From Candidatus Bathyarchaeota archaeon (GTDB taxonomy: Archaea; Thermoproteota; Bathyarchaeia; TCS64), in the NCBI GenBank assembly GCA_018396865.1, contig JAGTRB010000015.1, positions 1-52,491 of the forward strand: DNA of 52,491 nt. Reading direction: 5' to 3'. Position 1 is the first letter of the stretch. Every line of letters starts with the position of its first letter. The translations under genes and the position numbers were made by a program. Below, piece by piece: positions 49,483 to 52,451 of this stretch. The notes under the pieces are model-generated. The model did not search any database and had not been told where the DNA came from. It saw only the letters and a program-made list of their open reading frames with translations.

Positions 49483-51726
49483 TTGATTAAAAAGGTCACG
49501 ATAATCACGCCGCCGGAGTACGATATACTAGTTCTGGAGAGGCTTGGTAGATCGGGGATTACGCAGCTCAAGGAGGTGGCTGGTACTGAGATGGACCGTC
49601 TTCAAGGGGTAGCCAGAGTTGAACACGATTATAAAACCCTGTATGAGAGGGTCAACTCACGTTACCTAGAGTTCATGGAGATGGTGGGCATAAGCCCAAA
49701 ACCATATGCGCTCACACTAGAGGAGCTAAAGGAGTTCGCAGCTTCCCCGAGTGCGGTAGTGGAGAAGGCCGTAAAGGAGCTAGAGAGGTTAATAGCCCAG
49801 TTCAAGGAGTTGAAAGACTCTCAGAGTGAAGAGGTTAAATATCTCGCCAACGAGCTGCAGAGGGCCATAAACGAGGAGAACGCCAGATACGAGGCCGAGA
49901 GGGAGAGGGAAAAGGCGGCATATGAAGTGGAGGAGAGAAGATTATCGACATCTCAGCTATCGATGATCGCCTCATCCCGAGATTTGAGGGGGAGGCTTAG
50001 CCTGATAGAGGCTTTAAAGCCTGAGGAGTTCAAGAGCTCCTTCGCAGCCGGAATAGCAAGAAATGATGATATCGAGAAGCTTCAGGAGTATCTCGGCAGA
50101 TATCCAGATATCTACTACAGGACCGAGAGCATCTCCCCTGAAGAGAGCATCATCTTCATCTTCGGCCCGGAGGAGGTCCGAAACTGGGTCGAGGCGCTTT
50201 TCCTTGTCTTCAATGTGAGAGAGGTCTTCGAGGTAATGAGCCCTGGTGATGTCCTTCTAGTCCTAGATCCGGAAAGGAGGAGGGAGATTATAGAGAAATA
50301 TAGGGAAGCCCTCCGACAGCTAGAGGAGAGCCAGAGGAAGGCCGAAGAGGAGCTCCCGGAGAGGCCGAAGACCGATCTTGAGAGGATTCTAAATCTGGAG
50401 ATCGAACACAAACAGAGGTTGGAAGGCCTTATGAGGCGACATGAGGAGAGGATGAGGGAGCTCGAGGCCAAACACGCTAAAGAGATCGAGGCTCTAAAGG
50501 AAGAGCAGGTTCATGCCTTAAGCCGCATAGCAGCCTTGAACAACTTCCTAAAAATACTTTCAGAGTTTAAGGTCCCAATGCTCAGGACGAGGATCATAAC
50601 CATCCTCCAGGGATGGGTTCCGGAGAAGAAGGTAACGGAGTTCGAGAAGGTTGTAAGCGGCGTGGAGGCCGAGATAGGGGAGAAACTGTTCATCCAGTTC
50701 TCAGACCCAGATCCAGAGGAAGATGTTAACATCCCGACACCACCACCTGAGATTAAACCATCATTCCTCCAGCCAGCCTGGACACTAACAACCTTGAGGG
50801 GGTGGCCATCACCCCATGAGGTCAACCCAGCCTACATAACCATCCTGATCTTCAGCCTCCAGTTTGGGCTTATGTTCGGGGACATCGGCCAGGGAGCAGT
50901 CTTCCTGATAATGGGCTTATACCTAACCAGAAAGTATAAGAGGGGTATGATCTCAAAGCTCGGAACCCTCTTCATACCCATGGGGATATCGGCCATGATA
51001 TTCGGATTCCTATACGGTTCAGTCTTCCTCATGGAGCATCTAGAGATAGGCCCAGTTAAAATAGAGCCCATACTCCTAAGCCCGATACATGAGATAGGCA
51101 AGCTGATGAAGATGGTTCTCGGGATAGCCGTAGCTGAGATGTGCCTAGGACTCGCCATAGGAGCCATAAACCACATCAAAGAGGGTGAGCCTCTGGGAGC
51201 AATAGGAGAAAGGGGGTTAGGAGGAATCCTTTTCACCGTGGGCCTATACCTTGGAGGGCTAGAGTTCCTGCGCATCGGCGATGTTATGGCCCTAATGTCT
51301 CACTGGACCTTCTTCATGATGATAGGAGGCCTCCTCCTCTCGGCGATAGAGCCGATGCTCCTCTCGATAACCCATAAACACTTCGGTATGGAGGCGGTTG
51401 GAGAGGGCATCGGCGCCCTCCTCATGACCTTCGTGGAGAACCTCGCCAACTTCTTCTCCTTCCTACGAATAGCCGCCTTCGCCCTAGCCCACGCCAGCTT
51501 AGCAATAGCGGCAGAGGCTCTCGGCCACTTCATGGGCCCTGGAGGCTTAGTTATGACCAACGGCATAGCCATGACCTTCGAGTTCGTCTCAAGCACCGTT
51601 CAATCCCTCAGGCTGCTATACTACGAGTTCATGGGAAAGTTCTTCCAGGGAAAGGGTGTTCCCTTCAGACCCTTCGAGATCGGCTCCGAGAAGGAAGCCG
51701 AGGCCGAAACAACTTCAATTCCCTGA
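49483..51726 (+). CDS. atpI: A-type ATP synthase subunit I (a)
   Basis: Stator subunit (747 residues) that forms the ion channel beside the proteolipid ring. The N-terminal 400 residues are cytoplasmic with long coiled coils (ARYEAEREREKAAYEVEERR and HKQRLEGLMRRHEERMRELE). The C-terminal half has about seven to eight membrane helices, starting near INPAYITILIFSLQFGL-type sequence. The essential arginine for ion transfer is R662 in FFSFLRIAAFALAHASL, and a second conserved arginine is R710 in VQSLRLLYYEFMGKFF. TTG start with GAGGCGAG upstream and a TATA-like CTTTTAAT about 33 bases away. Confidence 0.96.
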   Translation: MIKKVTIITPPEYDILVLERLGRSGITQLKEVAGTEMDRLQGVARVEHDYKTLYERVNSRYLEFMEMVGISPKPYALTLEELKEFAASPSAVVEKAVKELERLIAQFKELKDSQSEEVKYLANELQRAINEENARYEAEREREKAAYEVEERRLSTSQLSMIASSRDLRGRLSLIEALKPEEFKSSFAAGIARNDDIEKLQEYLGRYPDIYYRTESISPEESIIFIFGPEEVRNWVEALFLVFNVREVFEVMSPGDVLLVLDPERRREIIEKYREALRQLEESQRKAEEELPERPKTDLERILNLEIEHKQRLEGLMRRHEERMRELEAKHAKEIEALKEEQVHALSRIAALNNFLKILSEFKVPMLRTRIITILQGWVPEKKVTEFEKVVSGVEAEIGEKLFIQFSDPDPEEDVNIPTPPPEIKPSFLQPAWTLTTLRGWPSPHEVNPAYITILIFSLQFGLMFGDIGQGAVFLIMGLYLTRKYKRGMISKLGTLFIPMGISAMIFGFLYGSVFLMEHLEIGPVKIEPILLSPIHEIGKLMKMVLGIAVAEMCLGLAIGAINHIKEGEPLGAIGERGLGGILFTVGLYLGGLEFLRIGDVMALMSHWTFFMMIGGLLLSAIEPMLLSITHKHFGMEAVGEGIGALLMTFVENLANFFSFLRIAAFALAHASLAIAAEALGHFMGPGGLVMTNGIAMTFEFVSSTVQSLRLLYYEFMGKFFQGKGVPFRPFEIGSEKEAEAETTSIP

Positions 51727-51818: not shown

Positions 51819-52451
51819 GTGGAGGTGATGACCATAGATAACCTTTTGTCTGCTGCAATTACCCTCGGAACAAGTATCATAGCGGCCGCGTGGTGCATAA
51901 CACATGCAGCTACAATAAATGCCTCGGCAGCCGTTGAGAGGGGAAGACCCTCTGTATGGGGTGTATCTCTAAACATCATCGGCTCTCTAATATTGGTATA
52001 TGGATTCATGCTAGGCCTCATGATGATGATGGGACAGCTATCCTCCTTGATGACACTATTCTTAGGAATTCTCCTCTTCCTCGGTTTTCTGCTTATAACG
52101 TCACTCTCTACGAGTGGGGGCGATGAAAAAAGCATAAAAGGGGCATTCGACGATGTAAGATCGGTGGGAGTGGTATCTCTGATAGTATTTGCTCTAAGCA
52201 TACTCTTCATAACAATCTTCGGAGGTGAGAGTGGTTTGTTGGAGGTTGAGGCCCTTCGCCCTCTCATGGGGGCTCTGACCATGATCGGCGCAGCCTTCGC
52301 GGCCGCCCTATGTATAGTGGCGGCCGTGAAGGCGGGCTCGGAGATGCTCCTCCAGAGACCCGAGCTGTCGATCTGGTCCCTACTCTTCGTGGCCCTCGGT
52401 GAGGGGCTGGCCATCTATGGGTTGATAGTGGCAATACTGCTGGTCAGTTAA
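51819..52451 (+). CDS. A-type ATPase proteolipid (c/K), six-helix, single glutamate
   Basis: A 210-residue membrane protein (numbering from GTG 51819; ATG 51828 is an alternative) with six hydrophobic segments. Its last hairpin is proteolipid-like: LLQRPELSIWSLLF then VALGEGLAIYGLIVAILLVS, with ion-binding glutamate E195. The first hairpin resembles the last (AVERGRPSVWGVSLNIIGSL, ILVYGF) but has S56 at the glutamate position. The middle hairpin (79-134) shows no carboxylate in its outer helix. It looks like a triplicated proteolipid carrying one ion site. GGAGGTG sits very close to the ATG. A non-rotor homologue cannot be excluded because the rest of the operon lies outside the window. Confidence 0.75.
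   Translation: MEVMTIDNLLSAAITLGTSIIAAAWCITHAATINASAAVERGRPSVWGVSLNIIGSLILVYGFMLGLMMMMGQLSSLMTLFLGILLFLGFLLITSLSTSGGDEKSIKGAFDDVRSVGVVSLIVFALSILFITIFGGESGLLEVEALRPLMGALTMIGAAFAAALCIVAAVKAGSEMLLQRPELSIWSLLFVALGEGLAIYGLIVAILLVS

Follow-up and report, generated by a model that had tools for sequence, protein, structure and literature searches.

A conserved internal start site and a predicted nested proteolipid gene in an A-type ATPase locus of Bathyarchaeota

The c ring of a rotary ATPase fixes the number of ions per ATP. The duplicated c/K subunit of Pyrococcus reportedly carries a single carboxylate and the triplicated c subunit of Methanocaldococcus jannaschii is said to carry two. ClpB and IF2 of Escherichia coli are reported to give two proteins each by in-frame internal initiation, a device for which we know of no example in an ATPase rotor subunit. 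Duplication, triplication and ligand loss in archaeal c subunits are described in the available portion of PMC2359735. In the hybrid F1Fo rotors of Acetobacterium woodii and Clostridium aceticum, a single-hairpin c is combined with a four-helix, one-carboxylate c1; the accessible part of the source gives fewer ions per ATP for this rotor and calls it a low-energy adaptation (PMC7911925). Several Bathyarchaeota are without an ATP synthase, according to the sections of PMC10656485 at hand. A literature search by title and abstract opening, with most subscription journals outside its scope, retrieved no report of a proteolipid made from a nested gene or by internal initiation, and the available portions of PMC9012536 and PMC5662883 contain nothing on a nested proteolipid. 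Here, we describe a bathyarchaeal proteolipid gene with a conserved internal start, a stronger finding than those of the preliminary description of this DNA, which missed it.

The window (the whole stretch of 52,491 nucleotides that was analyzed) belongs to a genome of 1.83 Mb in 43 contigs (97% complete, 3.2% contamination), the named relatives of which are Bathyarchaeota. The gene encodes the proteolipid of an A-type ATPase. Its GTG lies 92 bases past the end of the subunit I gene, which scores under the cut-off of the NCBIfam subunit I models, and the features of the locus are collected in Table 1. The contig continues beyond the window, where a run of N precedes a reading frame that we name FtsX-like. 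Pfam ATP-synt_C (PF00137) covers only residues 151–208 of the long ORF (35.6 bits; cut-off 24). The six helices of the preliminary description agree with six hydrophobic segments and with the six helices of an AlphaFold2 model of low confidence (mean pLDDT of 52.7), which was left out of the placement of the middle helices. In a Foldseek search with this model V-ATPase c chains rank first (best E of 0.023), with no matches at an E of 0.001 or better. The single recognizable carboxylate that had been described, with serine at the corresponding place of hairpin 1, is borne out by the alignments: E195, in the last hairpin, is the sole outer-helix carboxylate of the long ORF and is invariant in 13/13 aligned sequences, and its equivalent in hairpin 1 is S56 in the window gene and S, A, V or G in relatives. 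Acidic residues are absent from TM1–TM4 in 12 of the 13 triple rows, as had been noted for the outer helix of the middle pair of the window gene; the exception is G013, in which a single Glu lies in TM4 at the edge toward the linker.

Table 1. Positions of the features of the proteolipid locus in the window.
Feature	Position	Strand	Evidence
A-type ATPase subunit I (stator a), immediately 5' of the long ORF	49483..51726	+	Pfam V_ATPase_I, 93.8 bits
Long ORF: hairpin 1, middle helix pair and hairpin 3; 210 aa from GTG	51819..52451	+	
Shine-Dalgarno-like site GGAGGTGA for the long form	51821..51828	+	read from the sequence
Possible long-form start ATA (alternatives ATG 51828, GTG 51819)	51834..51836	+	inferred
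Hairpin 1, carboxylate-free proteolipid homologue (S56 at 51984-51986)	51840..52034	+	hhalign to hairpin 3, 93%
Middle helix pair, missing from two-hairpin forms	52035..52217	+	no detectable proteolipid-hairpin homology
Internal Shine-Dalgarno GGAGGTGA (codons GGA GGT GA-)	52221..52228	+	
Internal in-frame start codons TTG TTG, 7 and 10 nt past the Shine-Dalgarno	52236..52241	+	
Proposed nested gene, conventional single-hairpin c, about 71 aa	52236..52451	+	separate 73-aa ORF in G027
Ion-binding Glu codon, E195 in VALGEGLAIYG	52401..52403	+	aligns with the second-hairpin Glu of V-ATPase c chains

A window-type protein is found in 33 of the 61 genomes of relatives, 43 of which contain PF00137. 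The order was sampled with 32 genomes, 27 of them with PF00137. Twelve of these 27 have a long form of about 210 residues, present in two copies in the window's own genome (G000), and 12 have a double of about 150 residues that is made up of hairpins 1 and 3 without the middle pair; both forms occur in G016. The gene is split in G027, G028 and G030 have a single hairpin of about 100 residues, and G018 has a decayed copy together with another two-hairpin c gene. Ten of the 12 long-form genomes have no other PF00137 locus, the exceptions being G000 (second copy) and G016 (double). A profile of hairpin 1 finds 25 of the 256 genomes of the class, and all 25 belong to this order. The one-carboxylate long form is thus a family trait and more than chance, because the same anatomy recurs in 12 genomes and the dN/dS of hairpin 1 and of the middle pair is below 0.5 wherever it was computable in the ten pairs compared (one undefined value for each of the two segments). 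Contamination as the whole explanation was rejected, as the single-contig genomes G005 and G017 have the same form as their only PF00137 locus.

PF00137 identifies two loci in the window's genome, the window gene and, close to the end of contig C1, a further copy of this form, and no second conventional c gene elsewhere. The preliminary description had named a normal adjacent c gene as evidence against itself; such a gene appears to be present, nested within the long ORF. The end of contig C1 (L001, 200256–202697) repeats the subunit I end, the c gene and the FtsX-like gene of the end of C15 (L002), and its c protein is 78% identical to the window version. This second version probably comes from a sister strain or species in the bin and possibly from a real duplication. 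In G018, contigs C44 and C14 (L060 and L104) carry between them a two-hairpin c gene decayed by in-frame stops and, on a different contig from it, an intact one that has Glu in both hairpins; the pair represents either replacement or contamination. In another lineage of Thermoproteota, five loci (L085–L089 in G072, G079, G093, G100 and G107) contain c frames of 233–239 residues with three hairpins, each matching PF00137 and each with Glu, a full triplication.

Hairpins 1 and 3 of the long form are homologous (hhalign E of 3.5e-7), but the triplication first described is not supported: the middle pair matches neither, with hhalign probabilities of 0.6% against hairpin 3 and 0.3% against hairpin 1, and has no detectable homology to them. 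The fraction of Gly, Ala and Ser is 0.24 and 0.23 in the middle helices, compared with 0.44 in TM1 and 0.41 in TM5. When compared with hairpin 1 plus linker of the doubles, the middle pair plus linker gives 83.6%, which falls to 2.2% with the shared linker removed. The middle pair is thus possibly a degenerate copy of hairpin 1, the 83.6% depending on the shared linker. The doubles likely arose by losing the middle pair; the base of a subunit I tree (25 rows, quick method, four changes) is open on the polarity of doubles and triples.

The linker before hairpin 3 reads GGA GGT GAG AGT GGT TTG TTG in the window, with TTG ATG in place of TTG TTG in the C1 copy. The 16S of the window's own genome ends GGATCACCTCCT, which fits the Shine-Dalgarno (SD) sequence GGAGGTGA. 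Linkers were compared in 26 genes: the 13 triple rows, G027 and 12 doubles including the second G016 gene. GGAGGTGA is exact in 23 of them, GGAGGTG is present in 24 and GGAGG in all 26; the variant sites are GGAGGTGG in G029 and GGAGGAGGAGAA in G014 and G003. The in-frame codon past the site is ATG in 16 genes, GTG in five, TTG in four and CTG in one, at a distance of 7 nt in 21, 4 nt in four and 10 nt in G027; the short product predicted from it would begin with Met-Ile-Pro-Glu in many relatives. In G013 the ATG lies one codon earlier, still within SD range. The split gene, seen in the one genome G027, has TAA as the codon before AAA GGA GGT GAG, so that hairpin 3 is a separate ORF of 73 residues with its own ATG. 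The upstream ORF of G027 (267 residues; L044, 9518–10321) consists of an N-terminal extension, hairpin 1 and one more hydrophobic segment. The extension adds about 130 residues, including a hydrophobic stretch, before hairpin 1, and this extra domain probably sits outside the cell.

The linker site was compared with chance in several ways. When the 16 linker codons were redrawn synonymously from local codon use, P was 0.006–0.10 in 23 genes; the exceptions, without the full pattern, are G014 (0.39), G003 (0.87) and the second G016 gene (1.0). Fisher's combination gives 1.7e-8 for 16 representatives and, when each of nine genera is represented by its worst member, 1e-4; relatedness is only partly removed from these values, the genera not being fully independent. 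The two linker glycines are encoded by GGA and GGT in 13/13 triples, and the codons of other invariant glycine columns vary. Across all columns of the codon alignment, an SD of at least 7 with an in-frame start occurs in the linker only (13/13 triples and 9/11 doubles); at an SD of at least 5, the linker has it in 11/11 doubles, and a few other columns have it in 2–3 rows. Strong pairs of this kind also arise by chance: in the 41 longest frames of the window, seven internal SD-start pairs of at least 7 occur in 11,975 codons. Twenty stretches from other lineages of the phylum served as controls; three had no c gene by the script and two had single-hairpin genes, which left 15 multi-hairpin c genes, two of them identical in sequence. 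None of the 15 has an SD-start site at the linker; an in-frame start with an SD of 5 occurs somewhere in six and one with an SD of at least 6 in none. With the three exceptions named, the internal site is thus conserved beyond the demands of the protein sequence. The mRNA is predicted to be slightly less folded at the internal start (Wilcoxon P of 0.0008 on related rows; median at the 34th percentile).

Other ATPase genes also have SD sites: 29 of 74 matches to A1 genes have an SD of at least 5 if the most favorable start nearby is chosen for each (nine in A, ten in B, nine in E and one in F), with none in the C or D genes among the 74, and within these operons the sites of A, B and E often lie inside the upstream gene. 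The first 35 codons of 41 long window frames contain an SD of at least 5 in 17 cases and of at least 7 in one, a crude count, as the true starts of these frames are not established. At the 5' end of the long form, an SD-like sequence stands shortly before the codon aligned with residue 6 in most triples. This codon is ATG in five of the 13 triple rows and ATC, ATA or GTA in eight; at start distance, the latter are possible non-AUG starts of the long form. If the residue-6 codon is the real start, initiation would be weak in most rows and the long form would be a minor product.

Hairpin 1 and the middle pair evolve as a separate, faster module that is still under purifying selection. Between C15 and C1, codons differ at same-residue positions at a frequency of 0.49 in hairpin 1 and 0.41 in the middle pair, and of 0.09–0.15 in the neighbors and hairpin 3. 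Window positions 51840–52217 have low GC3 and are far more diverged from L001 than their flanks, as in a module that evolves fast or was exchanged. Hairpin 3 has low synonymous divergence, which was rejected as proof that a gene is nested here, since the values for subunit I and the FtsX-like gene are equally low. Mean GC3 in the triples is 0.30 in the linker, 0.56 in hairpin 1 and 0.71 in hairpin 3, and it is 0.24 in the linker of the doubles; low linker GC3 is the expectation just past a start codon, but the window's own genus, which has TTG at the internal start, lacks it (0.54–0.62). The A/B codon-use fit is higher for hairpin 3 than for hairpin 1 plus the middle pair in 5/7 rows and lower than for subunit I in five of the six rows computed.

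The locus would be a nested in-frame gene pair for the rotor of an A-type ATP synthase. Initiation at the 5' end would give a long membrane protein in which a carboxylate-free, proteolipid-like hairpin and an additional helix pair precede a normal c hairpin, the additional pair being part of the predicted long form in 12 genomes. Initiation at the internal SD would give the last hairpin alone, an ordinary c with one carboxylate. Both products would carry hairpin 3 and hence the carboxylate. Two SD sites, the conservation of the internal site and start, a natural split of the gene and purifying selection upstream are observed. We infer that both proteins are made, and likewise their ratio and their presence in one ring. 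On the sequence evidence, we consider it probable, with room for real doubt, that the long ORF yields a conventional c by internal initiation in addition to the long form. The ring would then probably consist mainly of the short form, and the long form would probably be either a minority ring subunit that dilutes the ion sites or an assembly helper. A mixed ring arising by dual initiation, with many short c subunits from the strong internal start and few long ones from a weak and often non-AUG start, is a bold possibility to which we would give slightly less than even weight.

Dual initiation might also supply a long form that acts outside the ring proper as an assembly factor, ring plug or regulator with the c hairpin as its anchor; this reading, whose weight is counted within that of dual initiation as a whole, we regard as rather unlikely. 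The G027 gene speaks for it, its upstream part being a protein of its own with three helices and with an extension N-terminal to hairpin 1, as do the dispensable middle and the faster divergence of hairpin 1 and the middle pair relative to neighboring genes. It is opposed by the in-frame fusion to hairpin 3 in 25 of the 26 genes and by hairpin 1 itself being a proteolipid homologue.

A homomeric ring of the long protein alone, with one carboxylate per six helices and few ions per turn, seems improbable. The ORF is open, with purifying selection throughout, and is the sole proteolipid locus in ten of the 12 long-form genomes, and one-carboxylate four-helix c subunits are known (from the available part of PMC2359735). 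Set against this are the conserved internal start, the split gene of G027 and a middle pair that is unlike a ring hairpin. In the preliminary description, a rotor ring formed by this protein had one carboxylate for every six helices; since an ordinary c is probably made from inside the long ORF, with hairpin 3 having its own conserved SD and start and standing separately in G027, such a ring is unlikely. Its observations on the sequence stand in part and its inference on the ring probably falls.

There is an equally small likelihood that the internal SD acts, without initiation, as a pause signal between hairpins that aids membrane insertion. The SD is located exactly at the linker between membrane hairpins, as such a signal would be, yet pausing needs no start codon, and ATG, GTG or TTG stands at start distance in 25/26 genes. 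Moreover, the shifted ATG of G013 keeps its spacing, G027 has a separate ORF and the site is absent from the other multi-hairpin c genes (0/15). A fused precursor from which a protease would release the c hairpin is very improbable, in spite of a linker exposed between hairpins and a hairpin 3 that stands alone in G027, as the conserved feature is the nucleotides (GGA GGT in 13/13 triples), and the residues after them vary.

The further ATPase genes that the preliminary description proposed to look for are present, with subunit I directly upstream and the A1 operon on contig C8. Pfam matches on C8 are vATP-synt_AC39, ATP-synt_D, ATP-synt_ab (twice), vATP-synt_E, ATP-synt_F and Proton_antipo_M (three times). 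In relatives, the I–c pair is convergent with an operon C-D-B-A-E-(H)-F, which is then followed by antiporter-type (complex-I/Mrp-type) subunits in eight fetched loci of the order. The ATP-driven pumping of the preliminary description is not favored by this context: an A1 operon adjoining complex-I/Mrp-type antiporter subunits fits ATP synthesis powered by an ion pump better than an enzyme that only pumps at the expense of ATP, although context does not prove the direction. Na+-translocating c subunits have extra ligands besides the carboxylate (Gln in the inner helix and Ser, Thr or Gln in the outer helix). In a comparison by eye with the ligand positions of Enterococcus hirae, Ile and Gly or hydrophobic residues occupy these places here. 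As the Na+ ligands were not seen in this comparison, protons appear to be the likelier ion.

If dual initiation holds, the synthesis of two ring subunits from a single message would represent a novel route to a mixed rotor, and translation could tune the gear ratio. The ions needed per ATP in a mixed ring would be set by the relative use of the two starts, which would give energy-starved archaea an adjustable gear. For annotation, the ORF alone misleads on the carboxylate count of a proteolipid: 25 of the 26 genes, all except the split one, would hide an ordinary c.

The predicted arrangement resembles that of ClpB and IF2 of E. coli, with one ORF, two starts and a long and a short product. 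Like the triplicated c of M. jannaschii, as given in the available part of PMC2359735, the long form has six predicted helices and about 210–220 residues; unlike it, the long form has a middle pair that is not detectable as a proteolipid hairpin, and one carboxylate is left. The double of the order, with its carboxylate in the last hairpin, is similar to the duplicated V-type c/K of E. hirae, which has one site per two hairpins in the portion of the same source at hand (PMC2359735), and differs from it in the internal SD and start between the hairpins and, in the long form, in the extra helix pair. A further parallel, within the accessible part of PMC7911925, is with A. woodii and C. aceticum, in which a single-hairpin c and a multi-hairpin one-carboxylate c are likewise encoded together. 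There, the two are separate genes of an F-type, Na+-dependent enzyme; here, they would be one nested in-frame gene of an A-type enzyme.
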